Assembly: GCA_947313885.1 (NCBI GenBank)
Contig: CAMZNU010000004.1
Coordinates: 1 to 63,159 of the forward strand
From: an uncultured Clostridia bacterium
Lineage (GTDB): Bacteria; Bacillota; Clostridia; Lachnospirales; CAMZNU01
Reading direction: 5' to 3'
Length of the DNA: 63,159 nt
Shown here: positions 55,473 to 63,159 of the stretch, piece after piece
Layout: every line of letters starts with the position of its first letter
How positions within the stretch are numbered: position 1 is the first letter of the stretch
Notes under the pieces: generated by a model
What the model saw: the letters and a program-made list of their open reading frames with translations, nothing else
Database searches by the model: none
Told to the model about the DNA's origin: nothing
Position numbers and translations under genes: made by a program

Positions 55473-55606
55473 TAGTTTTATACTCTTTACTTCTTAAAAT
55501 TTATTTATACTTTTACAAATTTATTTACTTTATAAATATATTACGTTATATTTATACATAATAATATTTATATATTAATTTTTTACTCAAGCAAGGGGGT
55601 ACTTTT
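55473..55606. other. Gene-free upstream region of the prepilin-like gene
   Basis: Very AT-rich sequence with no gene. A GGGGG lies just before the ATG at 55607. A promoter for the plus-strand operon must lie here, but several TATAAT-like sequences overlap and none has a clear -35. Confidence 0.35.
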
Positions 55607-58600
55607 ATGCGCAAAGGATTTTCACTTTTAGAACTTGTAATCACTATAATAATAACAGGACTCCTTGTTGGTATTATGGCCATGTTTCTAGGATCTTCTT
55701 TTACTATTTTTAGGTCGACTAATGTTAATACTCGTTCTTATGATTATTTACAATTACTTTCTGAATTTGTAACTTCTCAAACTAAAAGTGCCGAAGAATT
55801 AGAAATTTTTGATTCTATTGATGATATGCTACCTTTAGAGGACGGTTATCGCTACATTTATTTAGATACTGATACAGATGATCATAACAAAGTCTTTTTT
55901 TCTGACGGAGAAAATTACACAAATACTATACCTACTATTTCTACTGAAGGTGTAGGAAATTATACTATTATTTTTTCTACTGAAGATGATTCTATTTTAG
56001 ATGTTCAAACTGAACTTGAAACTTATAATTCTAAGAAAAATAGAGACTACTCTATAAGCCTTGAAAGTTTGTTAAATAGATCCAGCGCTATTTTACACAG
56101 TAAAGCTACTGATAGATCAGGAACAGCTATTAGGTATAAAAGTGATTTACCTATACCGACTCCTCCTATTCTTTATAGTGTTACTGTTCCTAAATATAAC
56201 AGTATTACTGAACCTGATGAAAACAATAATGTTAACATAGTTTTAAAATCTAATAATTTTATCGATTTAGAAAATCTTATTGCTACATATCAATATAGTG
56301 CCGATTCTATTAAAGTTTTTGGTTCTGGTGATACCCATCCCGATGACATTCGCGATTATTCTAAAGAAGTTGTCGTTATTCTTGAATCCGCTGGGTTTTT
56401 ACCTGTATATTATTTTATTAATGTTGATATCGATGGTGATGCTGAACTTTTCACTTTTGATTTATTTAAAAAAGATAACCCTTCTTTAAAATCTTCTAGA
56501 AAAGATAAAATCGGTGACTTCTTTTATAGTTACGTATCTTTGTATTTCTTTAACGATGAAATAGAAATTATGGATAGTTTAATTCCTACCCTTACTTTTG
56601 AAGCCGATAAACTTACCGTTAATGGTAACGAAATTGACACTACTATTTTTACACCTTTATCTTCTAAAGTCGATGGCGTAATTTTACCTACATCTCTAAA
56701 CTTTAATTATCCTATTAGTGTCACTGTTGAAAAAGGTCCTTATGTTAAAACTTATATTATAAATTCTTTTGTAGAACCTATTTTAACAGAACTTGAATAT
56801 TCTTATAATGGACTTACTAGATTCGCTAAAATAAATCAAAGCACTTCAACAGTTTCTATTTATGCTAACCCTGCCGACATTATTCCCGTTAAAGTAAATT
56901 ATATCGGTAATAGTGTAGTCGTTAGTGATAGAAACACTTTAGACAACAGTAAAATTATTTCTAACTCTAGAAATAATAACGATAAACTAAAACCTGATGT
57001 GCCAAGCCCCGTTACTCTAAATAACGATAAGCGTATTATCGTATACGGAAATGAAGGTAGTTTTAAAACTTATATGATCGTTTTTGAAGATAGTGCATTG
57101 CTTACAGAACTTGAATACAATGAATTAACTTCTAACAATCAAATACTTTTAAATGAACATATATTTAGAAAAAAAGTTGCTGGTCTTATTTCTTATAACG
57201 ATATTAATAGTACTAAAGGCGATATAACAGTTTTATTTCCACAAAATGAATTTTTATACCGTCGTCTTGCATCTTTTGAAACTTCAAATATTCTAGATGT
57301 AACGACTATTTCAAATAAATTACAACAATCTGAAATTAAAGAAATAAAAGACTTAACCAAAGATTTTACTTATGTTGTCGAATCGCCTATTTCAAAAATT
57401 AAAACAAATTATTTTTTGAATGTTTTATTTTCTGATAAACCTACTGTTGAAATTTTAAATGACAACCAATTAGTTGAAACTTTTAACGATAACTCTTTAG
57501 CGTTAACTGGTAATTATAATTATAGTCAAGGTTTTAATCGTACTATTAAAAAATATAAATACGTTTATGAAATGTCTAACACTATAGATTTTACAACTAA
57601 AGAAACTTTAGTAACTTATTCTAGTGATTTATTAGATTCTAATCCTTTAAACATCGAAGTTATTCCTTTAAATCTTGGTGCTATACACGAAAATAAATAT
57701 ATTCGTCTTGGTATTTCTGTCATTTCAGATACTTATGAAATGGATAATTCAACTTATGGTGGAGTTGAGTCTGACATGGTTTATACCGATCCTTATTTTT
57801 ACGAACAATCAGCTTGTCCTATTTCGCCATTTGCTAGTAATATGTACAACAATAGATTTTTATCACCTAATGTTATGTACTTATATTATCCTCTTGATAA
57901 TATGCCTATGGATAGTGACTTTGATGTTCAAGATGTAGTTATTGATGCTAGTAAAATTATTATACCTAAATACCCTAGCACCTCTTTATCTACAGATTTA
58001 CTAATTATGATTAATAACAATGATTTTAAAAATCTTGATTCTGTTATTTCTAAAATAGGTGGTGATACCGTATCTCCATCGCAAGTTATTAATATGGGAC
58101 TAAGAAAAGGTAGCAAAAACTTAGAACTATTATTACTTTTTAATGATAGTAATATTTTACCTGATGATGGAGGGTTTAAAGGCGGTTTCCCTATCGTTAA
58201 GTCTGGTGGGTTTACTTACCCATCTGGAAATACCGAAATTTCAAAAGCTTTCTCTTTAGAAAACGTTTTTGAAAATAATAAAAATAAATTTGCATTAGTT
58301 GACTATGCCAAAAATATTAATGGTCATAATCCTATTAATACATCTTTTAAAACTAATTCTGGAATTGGTGTTTGGAATGATTCATATATAGATTTACAAC
58401 GTGATATGGATGGAGATGAAGATTATTTTTTCTTTATCTCTACAGAAATTGACACGTTAACACAAACTAATGGATTCCGTGGTATGTTATCGGATGATAC
58501 TGCTCTACCCTGGAGTGGCACTAGTAAAAAAGGTTCTAACATTCAATTTGTACCTTTCCCTCCACAAGCTGGTTCAGAGGATTCTTTAATTCACATTTTT

Positions 58601-59041
58601 AGTTGGCATGGTTTTGCGGAACAAACTCATTACGGATCTGTAAATAAAGGCACTACAGATGAAGTTTCAAATGGTACTATAATGGGTACTATTCAAGCTA
58701 CGGGACTATATGAAGGGTTACATGATTATTCACCTGATAACCCTATAACTATATTAGCTATGAAAAAACGTGATAAACTTGTTTTCCAAGCTTTTCACGG
58801 AGAAAACTTCACTCCTGTACTAGTTTCTCACCATAAGCAAGCGCCTTTTTTACCTAGTTTTCCAACTTGTGGCATTCACTCTCATGAGGAAAATATTCCT
58901 TATGCATACATTTACTTCGGAGATTCTGATTATCACAATTTTGAAGGGCTTACTTTTAATAAATTTACTTTATTACCTATTCAATCTGCCTATAATATAA
59001 ATTTTGATAAAATTCGTGTTTTCGTAACTACTTTTAACTAA
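55607..59041 (+). CDS. Giant prepilin-like surface protein
   Basis: A 1144-residue protein with a type IV prepilin signal: MRKGFSLLELV, cleavage after Gly4, Phe5 as mature residue 1 and Glu9 as the conserved +5 Glu, then a hydrophobic helix (to about 30). Typical pilins have 130-250 residues, so this is five to eight times longer. The middle holds about four related beta-sandwich-like modules that each end in a V-x-x-G-x-x-KTY-x-I-x-F-like strand, near residues 275, 390, 495 and 605; these resemble DUF5018/cadherin-like repeats. The last 220 residues (921-1144) are Trp/His/Phe-rich and could be a lectin-like jelly roll. Only the prepilin signal is certain; adhesion is inference. It is 28 bases ahead of trpS with no terminator. 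Confidence 0.8.
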   Translation: MRKGFSLLELVITIIITGLLVGIMAMFLGSSFTIFRSTNVNTRSYDYLQLLSEFVTSQTKSAEELEIFDSIDDMLPLEDGYRYIYLDTDTDDHNKVFFSDGENYTNTIPTISTEGVGNYTIIFSTEDDSILDVQTELETYNSKKNRDYSISLESLLNRSSAILHSKATDRSGTAIRYKSDLPIPTPPILYSVTVPKYNSITEPDENNNVNIVLKSNNFIDLENLIATYQYSADSIKVFGSGDTHPDDIRDYSKEVVVILESAGFLPVYYFINVDIDGDAELFTFDLFKKDNPSLKSSRKDKIGDFFYSYVSLYFFNDEIEIMDSLIPTLTFEADKLTVNGNEIDTTIFTPLSSKVDGVILPTSLNFNYPISVTVEKGPYVKTYIINSFVEPILTELEYSYNGLTRFAKINQSTSTVSIYANPADIIPVKVNYIGNSVVVSDRNTLDNSKIISNSRNNNDKLKPDVPSPVTLNNDKRIIVYGNEGSFKTYMIVFEDSALLTELEYNELTSNNQILLNEHIFRKKVAGLISYNDINSTKGDITVLFPQNEFLYRRLASFETSNILDVTTISNKLQQSEIKEIKDLTKDFTYVVESPISKIKTNYFLNVLFSDKPTVEILNDNQLVETFNDNSLALTGNYNYSQGFNRTIKKYKYVYEMSNTIDFTTKETLVTYSSDLLDSNPLNIEVIPLNLGAIHENKYIRLGISVISDTYEMDNSTYGGVESDMVYTDPYFYEQSACPISPFASNMYNNRFLSPNVMYLYYPLDNMPMDSDFDVQDVVIDASKIIIPKYPSTSLSTDLLIMINNNDFKNLDSVISKIGGDTVSPSQVINMGLRKGSKNLELLLLFNDSNILPDDGGFKGGFPIVKSGGFTYPSGNTEISKAFSLENVFENNKNKFALVDYAKNINGHNPINTSFKTNSGIGVWNDSYIDLQRDMDGDEDYFFFISTEIDTLTQTNGFRGMLSDDTALPWSGTSKKGSNIQFVPFPPQAGSEDSLIHIFSWHGFAEQTHYGSVNKGTTDEVSNGTIMGTIQATGLYEGLHDYSPDNPITILAMKKRDKLVFQAFHGENFTPVLVSHHKQAPFLPSFPTCGIHSHEENIPYAYIYFGDSDYHNFEGLTFNKFTLLPIQSAYNINFDKIRVFVTTFN

Positions 59042-59069: not shown

Positions 59070-60065
59070 ATGAACAAAAAACAAGTTTTATTTAGTGGCA
59101 TTAAACCGTCTGGAGATATTACCCTTGGAAATTATTTAGGTGCTATTAAAAACTGGGTCGATTTACAAAATGACTACGATTGTTATTTTTCTATTGTAGA
59201 TTTACATGCAATTACTGTTAAACAAGAACCTAAAGATTTACGTAAATCTACTTTAGAAATTATGGCAATCTATATAGCAAGTGGTATCGATATTAAAAAA
59301 AGTACTATTTTTATTCAAAGTCATGTACCAGCTCATACAGAATGTTCTTGGCTCTTAAATTGCTACTCCTATATAGGCGAATTATCACGTATGACTCAAT
59401 ATAAAGACACTTCTAAAAATAAAGACCAAAACGTTAGTGTAGGACTTTTTGATTACCCTGTACTTATGGCATCGGATATATTGCTTTATCAAACGGATTT
59501 AGTTCCTGTTGGCGAAGATCAAAAACAACATATAGAACTTACTCGTGATATTGCAACTAGATTTAATAACTTATATTCACCAACTTTTAAAATACCAACA
59601 CCTAGTATCCCTAAAGCTGGCGCTAGAATTATGGGACTTCAAGACCCAACTAAAAAAATGTCTAAATCTGATGAAAATGAAAATGGTTGTATTTATATTT
59701 TAGATAGTGATGACGTTATAAGACGTAAAATAAATAAAGCTGTTACAGATACTGTAGGTATTGTTCAAATTAGTGATGATCAATTAGGTGTTAAAAATTT
59801 AATAAACATATATAGCGTTGTAACTGGTTTATCTTTTAACGACATTGAAGAAAAATATAAAGGCAAAAATTATTCGCACTTTAAAAAAGATTTAGGTGAT
59901 ATTTTAGTTGCAGAACTATCACCTATAAGAGAAAAAGCTAATAGTTTACTACAAAATAAAGACGAACTTTTAAAAATTGCTAAAGAAAATTCGGATAAAG
60001 CAAACTATGTAGCTCAAAAAACTTTACGAAAAATGAAAAAGAAAATTGGCTTGATTTCGCTATGA
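59070..60065 (+). CDS. trpS: Tryptophanyl-tRNA synthetase
   Basis: A 331-residue class I synthetase. The HIGH-equivalent segment is SGIKPSGDITLGNYLGAIKNW near residue 10, the KMSKS motif (KKMSKSDENENG) is near 195 and DLVPVGEDQKQH is present. Length and motifs are standard. AAGGAG precedes the ATG. No T-box is present; it seems to be transcribed from upstream of the prepilin-like gene. Its stop overlaps acpS. Confidence 0.96.
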   Translation: MNKKQVLFSGIKPSGDITLGNYLGAIKNWVDLQNDYDCYFSIVDLHAITVKQEPKDLRKSTLEIMAIYIASGIDIKKSTIFIQSHVPAHTECSWLLNCYSYIGELSRMTQYKDTSKNKDQNVSVGLFDYPVLMASDILLYQTDLVPVGEDQKQHIELTRDIATRFNNLYSPTFKIPTPSIPKAGARIMGLQDPTKKMSKSDENENGCIYILDSDDVIRRKINKAVTDTVGIVQISDDQLGVKNLINIYSVVTGLSFNDIEEKYKGKNYSHFKKDLGDILVAELSPIREKANSLLQNKDELLKIAKENSDKANYVAQKTLRKMKKKIGLISL

Positions 60066-60430
60066 TAAAAGGAATTGGTACAGATTTAATTGAAATTGAT
60101 AGAATTAAAAAAGCCGTTTTAAAGGAAAGATTCACAAAAAAATGTTATACTATTAATGAACTTAATAATTTTTATTATGTAGATAATATAAATTATAATT
60201 CTTTAGCTGGTAATTTCGCAGGTAAAGAAGCCGTTAGCAAAGCACTAGGTACAGGGTTTAGCAATGTTTCTTTACTTGATATCGAAATACTTCGCCACCC
60301 ATCGGGAAAACCTTATGTAAATTTATTTGGTAATGCTAAATTAATTGCCGACTCTTTAAATATTAATGAACTTTTAATTTCTATTTCTCATAATAAAACT
60401 AGTGCCTCGGCTTTTGTCATTGCACAGTAA
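60062..60430 (+). CDS. acpS: Holo-[acyl-carrier-protein] synthase
   Basis: A 122-residue phosphopantetheinyl transferase that activates ACP with CoA. GIGTDLIEIDRI at the N-terminus contains the first Mg-binding Asp, and FAGKEAVSKALGTG the second acidic residue. HPSGKPYV and SISHNKTSASAFV are also conserved. The ATG overlaps the trpS stop by four bases. Confidence 0.95.
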   Translation: MIKGIGTDLIEIDRIKKAVLKERFTKKCYTINELNNFYYVDNINYNSLAGNFAGKEAVSKALGTGFSNVSLLDIEILRHPSGKPYVNLFGNAKLIADSLNINELLISISHNKTSASAFVIAQ

Positions 60431-60443
60431 AGAAAGGAGTTTT

Positions 60444-61583
60444 ATGAAAGCTATAATTAACAGTAATTTATTTTACGAAAATAAATTCCAAAAAAACTTA
60501 GTAATAATATTTGACGACGTAATAAAAAGTATTATTTCAATAGATGATTTTGAAAAACTTAATTTCAATTCTTTAAATGTCATAGATGCTAAAGGAGATT
60601 TTGTAGTACCTGGATTTATAGATGTTCACATTCACGGATATGATGGCTTTGATACTATGGATGGAACTACAGAAGCTATTGATGTAATTAGAAAAGGTAT
60701 TACCGCAAACGGTGTAACATCTTTTTTACCTACTACTATGACGATGGAACAACCTAAAATTGAAAAAGCTATTAAAAACGTAGAAAGAGCATCAACTTTT
60801 AAAATTGGTGCTAATATCCTTGGGGTACATTTAGAAGGCCCTTACATAAACAGCAAATATAAAGGCGCTCAAGATTCTAGTTATATCGTTGAACCTGATT
60901 TTGATTTTTTAAATCGTTACAAAAATATTATTAAAGTAGCAACTATTGCACCAGAAATTAACAACGCTTTACCTATAATAGAAAAGTTTCATAAAGATTT
61001 TAACTTTTCTATAGGGCATAGTAACGCAACTTATGAAGTCGCTTTAGATGCTTTTAATAAAGGTTGCACTGGTATAACACATTTATTTAATGCTATGACA
61101 CCTTTAAATCACAGGTCTCCTGGTATTGTTGGATGTGCTTTAACTCACGATTTTTATACTGAGCTTATTGCCGATAATATTCACGTATCTGAAGATTTGT
61201 ATGATTTTTTAATAACTAATAAAGGTTTTGATAAATTAATTTTAGTTACAGACTGTATTCAAGCTACTAATATGCCTAATGGCATTTATTCTCTTGGCGG
61301 TCAAAATGTTACCGTTAACAACGGTAGATGTACTCTAGATTCTGGTACAATAGCTGGTAGCACTTTAAAACTTAATACAGCACTTAAAAATTTTACTACA
61401 GCTACTAAGCACCCATTAGAAAAAACTATTAACCTTGTTACTTCTAACCCTGCTAAATACCTTGGTGTTTACGACACTATCGGTAGCTTAGATGTTGGTA
61501 AAAAAGCAGACATCGTTATTATGGATGAAAATTTTAATATTAAAAATACAATTGTAGAAGGAGATATGACTTATGAAATTTAA
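60444..61583 (+). CDS. nagA: N-acetylglucosamine-6-phosphate deacetylase
   Basis: A 379-residue amidohydrolase that deacetylates GlcNAc-6-P in amino-sugar catabolism and cell-wall recycling. Motifs: DVHIHGYDGFDTMDG, HLEGPYINSKYKGAQD, GHSNATYE, THLFNAM and the catalytic Asp region VTDCIQAT. AAAGGAG is placed for the ATG at 60444; the frame opens earlier inside acpS, which is not a likely start. It overlaps nagB by eleven bases. Confidence 0.95.
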   Translation: MKAIINSNLFYENKFQKNLVIIFDDVIKSIISIDDFEKLNFNSLNVIDAKGDFVVPGFIDVHIHGYDGFDTMDGTTEAIDVIRKGITANGVTSFLPTTMTMEQPKIEKAIKNVERASTFKIGANILGVHLEGPYINSKYKGAQDSSYIVEPDFDFLNRYKNIIKVATIAPEINNALPIIEKFHKDFNFSIGHSNATYEVALDAFNKGCTGITHLFNAMTPLNHRSPGIVGCALTHDFYTELIADNIHVSEDLYDFLITNKGFDKLILVTDCIQATNMPNGIYSLGGQNVTVNNGRCTLDSGTIAGSTLKLNTALKNFTTATKHPLEKTINLVTSNPAKYLGVYDTIGSLDVGKKADIVIMDENFNIKNTIVEGDMTYEI

Positions 61584-62346
61584 TTACAGAGGAATTACTA
61601 TTTTTATTTTAGAAGATTATAACAAAGTAAGTAAAAAAGCAGCTCAATTATTATCAGCTCAAATTACTTTAAAAAGTAACAGCGTTTTAGGATTAGCTAC
61701 AGGCTCAACACCTGAGGGAATGTACAAAGAATTAATTGATATGTATAATGATCATATTTTAGACTTTAGCGAAGTTACAACGTTTAACCTTGATGAATAT
61801 TATAATATCGATCCTAATAATAGCCAAAGTTATCACTACTATATGAACACTAATTTATTTAATCACGTTAATATAGATAGAACTAAAGTTAATATACCTT
61901 CTGGTAAAATTAAATCATCTGAAGTTGATAAGTTTTGTAATGATTATGATGATTCTATTTTTAAATGCGGGAAAATTGATTTTCAAGTTCTAGGTATAGG
62001 TACTAACGGACATATAGGATTTAATGAACCTGATATTCATTTTGAAGCTGGTACACACCTTGTTGACCTTGATCAAAAAACTATTGATGCTAATGCTAGA
62101 TTTTTTAATAGTACTGATGAAGTTCCTAAACAAGCTATTAGTATTGGAATTAGAAATATTATGCAATCTAAAAAAGTTATGCTTATGGCATCTGGTTCTA
62201 CTAAAGCATCTGTTATTGATAAAATGATTTTTGGCGAAGTTACACCGCATCTACCTGCGTCAATTTTACAAGTTCATAATGATGTTACTATTATTGTTGA
62301 CAAAGAGGCTGGTAGTATTATCCTTGATAAACTAAATAAAATTTAG
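61573..62346 (+). CDS. nagB: Glucosamine-6-phosphate deaminase
   Basis: A 257-residue aldose-ketose isomerase/deaminase that converts glucosamine-6-phosphate to fructose-6-phosphate and ammonia. GLATGSTPEGMYKEL, TFNLDEYYNI and GIGTNGHIGFNEPD with the catalytic residues are intact, as is the SIGIRNIMQSKK segment. It overlaps nagA, so the two enzymes are made together. GlmM at 41941 acts in the opposite, biosynthetic direction of the same amino-sugar pool. Confidence 0.95.
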   Translation: MKFNYRGITIFILEDYNKVSKKAAQLLSAQITLKSNSVLGLATGSTPEGMYKELIDMYNDHILDFSEVTTFNLDEYYNIDPNNSQSYHYYMNTNLFNHVNIDRTKVNIPSGKIKSSEVDKFCNDYDDSIFKCGKIDFQVLGIGTNGHIGFNEPDIHFEAGTHLVDLDQKTIDANARFFNSTDEVPKQAISIGIRNIMQSKKVMLMASGSTKASVIDKMIFGEVTPHLPASILQVHNDVTIIVDKEAGSIILDKLNKI

Positions 62347-62796: not shown

Positions 62797-63159
62797 TTAT
62801 TTTTTATTATCAATGTAATTTTTAATTTTCTCAATACTTAAACCTGTACATAGCGATATAGTTTTATTGTCTAATCCATTTTTATGCATATTTTTCGCTG
62901 TTTCTATTATTCCTTGTTCTATTCCTTGTTCTATTCCTTGTTCTATTCCTTGTTCTATTCCTTGTTCTATTCCTTGTTCTATTCCTTGTTCTATTCCTTG
63001 TTCTATCCCTTGTTCTAATCCCTTGTCAAAACCAAAATCTATCTCTGCTTCTCTGTCTCTAATCATTTTTTGATTTATTTCATACTCTGATATTACGTAT
63101 GGGTTTTCACTCATTTTTTTTAATACTTTTACTGGCTTTTCAAATCTTAAATCTTCTTT
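62797..63159 (-). CDS. C-terminal part of an Rpn/PD-(D/E)XK-type nuclease (5' end outside the window)
   Basis: The frame continues to base 63159 without a stop upstream, so only about 120 C-terminal residues are visible. The sequence KPVKVLKKMSENPYVISEYE, then REAEIDFGFDKG, followed by one GLEQ and eight GIEQ tetrapeptides and a NMHKNGLDNKTISLCTGLSIEKI tail, is typical for the end of Rpn-family recombination-promoting nucleases (PD-(D/E)XK transposase-like). The catalytic part lies beyond the edge. Whether it is intact cannot be told. Confidence 0.7.
   Translation of the reverse strand, partial: KEDLRFEKPVKVLKKMSENPYVISEYEINQKMIRDREAEIDFGFDKGLEQGIEQGIEQGIEQGIEQGIEQGIEQGIEQGIEQGIIETAKNMHKNGLDNKTISLCTGLSIEKIKNYIDNKK
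62908..63021 (-). repeat. Perfect 12-bp tandem repeats coding GIEQ
   Basis: Nine copies of a 12-bp unit (plus-strand TTCTATTCCTTG), mostly identical, code for GIEQ repeats in the nuclease-like protein. The unit length is a multiple of three, so copy changes keep the frame. Confidence 0.9.

Follow-up and report, generated by a model that had tools for sequence, protein, structure and literature searches.

A probable modular minor type IV pilin of 1144 residues with cargo matching no family, encoded by an uncultured Clostridia bacterium

A 1144-residue open reading frame (P0001), uninterrupted by stops, lies in the 63,159-nucleotide stretch of DNA from an uncultured Clostridia bacterium that was analyzed here (the window), and we consider it to be, in all probability, a modular minor type IV pilin. 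Type IV pili are retractable hair-like surface fibres; on the reading that we favor with reasonable confidence, P0001 would be displayed at the tip of such a fibre and would consist of a carrier of the PilW/S. sanguinis PilB type joined to an adhesive added part. The protein fits a known and widespread class, that of the modular pilins, and what is unusual about it is its size together with a cargo that matches no family. The window corresponds to contig C4 of a genome of 1.55 Mb in 49 contigs, estimated to be 95.8% complete, and it carries sporulation genes (spoIIR-, gerXA- and gerC-type). The features discussed below are placed in Table 1.

Table 1. Positions of P0001, its parts and the adjoining gene in the window.
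Feature	Position	Strand	Basis
Ribosome-binding site AAGGGGG	55593..55599	+	7 nt 5' of the P0001 ATG; read from the sequence
P0001, modular prepilin, 1144 aa	55607..59041	+	PF07963 and TIGR02532 matches
Class III leader MRKG, predicted cleavage after Gly4	55607..55618	+	direct reading
Hydrophobic alpha-1N segment, residues 5-28, Glu at mature position 5	55619..55690	+	
Complete PilW/PilB-type minor pilin module, residues 1-182	55607..56152	+	alignments A2 and A3, head-only profile, 7b7p/7ba2 match
Possible chain of about four beta modules (95-115 residues), residues 183-612	56153..57442	+	repetition not above chance
Extracellular region, residues 613-885	57443..58261	+	nothing matched in Pfam, NCBIfam, PHROGs or PDB sequences
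C-terminal region rich in Trp, His and Phe, candidate ligand-binding domain, residues 886-1144	58262..59038	+	composition
trpS, next gene	59070..60065	+	TIGR00233; 28 bp downstream of P0001

The N-terminus of P0001 reads MRKG|FSLLELVITIIITGLLVGIMAMFL, which is the class III signal of a type IV prepilin, with Gly4 before the cut and Glu at mature position +5. This is the signal that the initial annotation had claimed, and TIGR02532 matched it above the cut-off. The Pfam N_methyl model (PF07963) was slightly below its cut-off in the protein scan (E 9e-4) and above it in the genome scan. Furthermore, residues 5-28 were the only stretch of P0001 for which AlphaFold2, run without an alignment, gave a somewhat confident helix prediction.

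The part of P0001 that follows this signal, up to the boundary sequence GTAIRYKS, is minor-pilin-like. Comparison of sequences gives good support to residues 1-182 being a complete and normal minor-pilin module, the carrier part, because a head-only profile matches residues 48-179 and relatives of 163-165 aa stop at the boundary. That profile combined the head sequences of L022, L023 and L025, which come from other genera, and both the signal region and P0001 itself were excluded from it to avoid circularity; its match to P0001 had an E-value of 8e-6 (Z=1000), and the best of 200 shuffles reached 0.37. The same profile also recovered the modular pilins L068-L073, including L072, which bears a vWA domain, and L069 and L070, which bear fn3. 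The ordinary minor pilins L023 (163 aa) and L025 (165 aa), both complete, end in GKVIKYKKP and GKAVKYKKP, respectively; at the point where they stop, P0001 reads ...SGTAIRYKSDLP and then goes on for about 960 further residues. When the whole of P0001 was used to search the class, the matches fell on the N-terminal parts of other prepilins, together with two chance matches.

Profiles that themselves contain P0001 matched the pilin head of S. sanguinis PilB at residues 9-156 in hmmsearch (E 1.2e-4 with alignment A2 and 4e-4 with A3). The matched region lies outside the common N-terminal helix, and the PilB sequence GIAIAYRTDPI stands opposite the module boundary of P0001, which has a complete pilin module in the sense used for modular pilins (PMC8179133). 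PilB is a bimodular pilin of solved structure with a vWA module (PDB 7b7p/7ba2; PMC8179133), and it resembles P0001 in its pilin module of about 180 residues and the same type, and in that the profile match ends at the module boundary, directly after which the added part begins. P0001 differs from PilB in the 960 residues of its added part, which no profile identifies as vWA, and in that its gene lies outside the pil operon. The proposal of a prepilin with a large additional extracellular part is supported. We regard it as quite improbable that P0001 is instead a membrane-anchored surface protein that uses a prepilin-like N-terminus as its anchor and stays out of the filament: although the gene stands away from the pilus genes, the added part is about five times as large as the pilin module and N_methyl was borderline in the protein scan, the protein has a consensus cleavage site and a complete head that is homologous to those of polymerising modular pilins.

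No pilus-assembly genes were found among the window ORFs that were read, as the initial annotation had stated, and its expectation that the machinery would be elsewhere was borne out by pilB, pilC and a prepilin peptidase on contig C20 and by a second set on C6 and C11. Absence of a prepilin peptidase had been named in advance as grounds for rejecting the prepilin reading; the peptidase is encoded at C20:70373-70696 (PF01478). On one strand of C20 we found, in order, pilB, pilT, pilC, a 139-aa pilin gene (pilA), genes for an X-like protein of 144 aa and a V-like protein of 113 aa, a PilM-like gene, genes for two proteins at the PilN and PilO positions, one for an SLH-domain protein and the peptidase gene; the labels X, V, N and O rest on position and our reading, and no NCBIfam model gives them. 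The platform family PF00482 is present on both C20 and C6 and PilB/PilT on C20, and the genome contains an assembly ATPase and platform as well as the peptidase. The SLH-domain protein is a 580-aa S-layer homology protein (L015:7058-8800, minus strand) encoded in the C20 operon directly upstream of the peptidase gene, and a role in anchoring or gating the pilus at the cell wall is possible. C6 carries the second ATPase and platform and two prepilins, and C11 carries a PilO-like protein and more prepilins; the second type IV filament set is split across these two contigs (L016:1119-5008 and L017:4224-8971).

The C20 set has no pilin of the P0001 type, although X- and V-like pilins are present, and therefore the window gene, by elimination, probably supplies it. 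The genome has one other candidate for a pilin of this type, a 179-aa prepilin on C6, which is a weak match (E 0.024) and would serve the second system. The P0001 gene itself stands apart from the pilus genes and adjoins trpS; no intrinsic terminator was found between the two, which are probably co-transcribed. Such an orphan position has a precedent in pilJ and pilW of Clostridioides difficile, which are regarded as accessories and lie outside T4P clusters (PMC9556784). PilJ and PilW resemble P0001 in being T4P minor pilins that a sporeformer encodes away from its pilus cluster, but they are much smaller, PilJ being a dual pilin and PilW resembling the major pilin. Further along the same strand, after trpS and an acpS-like gene, there are a nagA-like gene and nagB (window 60402-62346), whose products serve N-acetylglucosamine use; that these neighbors hint at an amino-sugar-containing ligand is possible but very weak. 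Near the end of the window a 105-aa ORF on the minus strand (62797-63114) contains a long run of EQGIEQGI repeats.

In several other genomes, P0001-type pilins follow X- and V-like genes, and pilB or pilT is often part of the set. The pilX-pilV-pilW products of three such sets measure 493/113/165 aa (L081), 402/138/276 aa (L083) and 369/124/964 aa (L070), and the W-type pilins of L018, L031 and L032 have 771-812 aa. Of the 34 matches listed that extend to profile position 150 or further, 13 are in open frames of at least 300 aa, P0001 being the longest of these. Pfam recognized cargo on several W-type pilins: vWA (L072), CBM_X2 (L074), CBM_5_12 (L071), fn3 (L069 and L070) and CBM_2 (L018). These six share with P0001 the same or a related carrier with added domains, and they mostly close a pilX-pilV-pilW set; however, they are 325-971 aa long and lie beside other pil genes, whereas P0001 is longer and stands alone, and their added domains do not match those of P0001. 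The surface structure had been thought uncommon, a view that does not survive comparison: the related genomes searched commonly have prepilins in long open frames, and the modular pilins reported number over 1,200, in 264 architectures (Raynaud et al. 2021, PMC8179133).

The gene order of these relatives, with P0001-type pilins in the pilX-pilV-pilW set, and the lack of such a pilin in the C20 set also bear on whether P0001 could be a core assembly or priming subunit, namely the W/J-type pilin missing from C20, with an extra part that is mainly a spacer or cap. In S. sanguinis the minor pilins PilA, PilB and PilC are each required for filament assembly (PMC9934059), which favors this explanation, but about 960 added residues would be costly for a pure primer, and L023 and L025 manage without them. 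We therefore consider a purely priming role unlikely; priming and adhesion are, moreover, compatible, as the two functions are combined in S. sanguinis PilB and PilC.

Other large prepilins came to light in these comparisons. Two genomes of one genus, in the same order as the source of the window, encode related prepilins of 3722 aa (L029:1096-12264, minus strand) and 2725 aa (L030:1323-9500, minus strand) among pilus-assembly-like genes. Lysine is almost absent from both (0.3% K and 5.5-6.6% R), and they share about 40% identity over their first 860 residues; to our knowledge, no known pilin approaches them in size. A 1959-aa prepilin (L076:1643-7522, minus strand) contains five or more Listeria-Bacteroides repeat domains as well as a weak Hint-like match, and an adjoining ORF of 656 aa also has a prepilin-like signal at its start.

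Residues 183-1144, the added part of P0001, gave nothing above chance in Pfam, NCBIfam, PHROGs or PDB sequences. In particular, neither the whole protein nor its pieces matched a vWA module with a MIDAS in Pfam or NCBIfam, and no profile matched a ConA/LamG-like beta-sandwich at the C-terminus. We found no relatives of the added part in the genomes of 96 relatives, in 391 sampled genomes of the class (whole-P0001 query), in genome contigs (searched twice), or in viral contigs, phages and plasmids; likewise there were none of residues 609-1144 in 398 sampled genomes of the phylum, and none of residues 899-1144 in 392 sampled genomes of the order beyond two chance matches. The two weak matches to residues 899-1144 were rejected, the frame reading as a sugar-phosphate isomerase/epimerase-like protein, and so were the two to the middle of P0001 in the class search, whose frames read as lysyl-tRNA synthetase and dephospho-CoA kinase. 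AlphaFold2 predictions were of low confidence because they were made without an alignment: the pLDDT of 28.5 for the whole protein was too low for a fold, and for residues 886-1144 it was 30.7, with noise (best E 2.3) in a PDB fold search.

About four similar modules with V-x-x-G-KTY-like strands had been described near residues 275, 390, 495 and 605, and their similarity did not exceed chance. KTY occurs in P0001 at positions 381 and 487 only, and the best self-match (381-399 against 487-505, score 43) was equaled or beaten by half of 20 shuffles; pairwise alignments of the modules gave z-scores of -1.2 to 2.4, and hhalign between them gave probabilities of at most 2.4%. Two of the best self-matches within the region are, however, spaced 101 and 106 residues apart, consistent with tandem modules about 105 aa long, so that repetition, though not demonstrated, is not refuted either. 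The tail is indeed rich in Trp, His and Phe: residues 886-1144 hold all three Trp of P0001, 11 of its 16 His and 23 of its 70 Phe. Our own reading of the strand pattern suggests that the pieces may be beta-rich and the tail ConA/LamG-like, which we treat as a lead only.

The absence of any recognized adhesive or sugar-binding domain among residues 183-1144 speaks against the adhesin reading as far as sequence goes. By analogy, an adhesin or sugar-binding tip on P0001 is nevertheless plausible, and adhesion is probably the function of this part. The His- and Asp-containing C-terminal region, and the peptidase modules found among modular pilins (PMC8179133), could also suit an enzyme displayed on the pilus, such as a glycan or protein hydrolase; no catalytic family was found in Pfam or NCBIfam, ligand binding is the role of most characterized cargo, and we consider an enzyme highly improbable. 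S. sanguinis PilB and PilC are adhesive in experiments and have been modeled at the pilus tip (PMC8179133, PMC9934059). PilC has pilin, Ig-like and ConA-like lectin modules (PMC9934059), and the plan of P0001 is possibly alike; an arm of beta modules with a ConA/LamG-like tail would resemble it, again as a lead only. The two proteins have no detectable sequence match, and PilC differs in its single Ig-like module and unusual pilin head, the lectin fold of P0001 being conjecture.

We infer that P0001 is exported, cleaved, used by the C20 system and not by that of C6/C11, located at the tip and adhesive towards a ligand. As an adhesive modular pilin, P0001 would lose its MRKG leader to the C20 prepilin peptidase and would be polymerized through its N-terminal helix by the pilB/pilC machine; it would most likely sit at or near the pilus tip because of its bulk. 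The remaining 960 residues would form a long outward arm with the C-terminal domain at its end, binding a surface ligand, and the pilus would attach and pull, the retraction ATPase PilT being encoded on C20. More tentatively, and with some doubt on our part, P0001 may represent a new adhesin family, with a rigid arm of several Ig-like modules and a new glycan-binding end domain, on a pilin encoded apart from the pilus operon in a small-genome sporeformer and with no other member among the genomes searched.

With 1144 aa, as against 860 residues in the most extreme multi-domain modular pilin cited in PMC8179133, P0001 adds a large example to the modular pilins. It is a further instance of the idea that bacteria give type IV pili new functions through the fusion of domains to a single carrier pilin. 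Furthermore, the carrier profile connects many pilins of this class with S. sanguinis PilB, and could reveal cargo domains that databases do not recognize.
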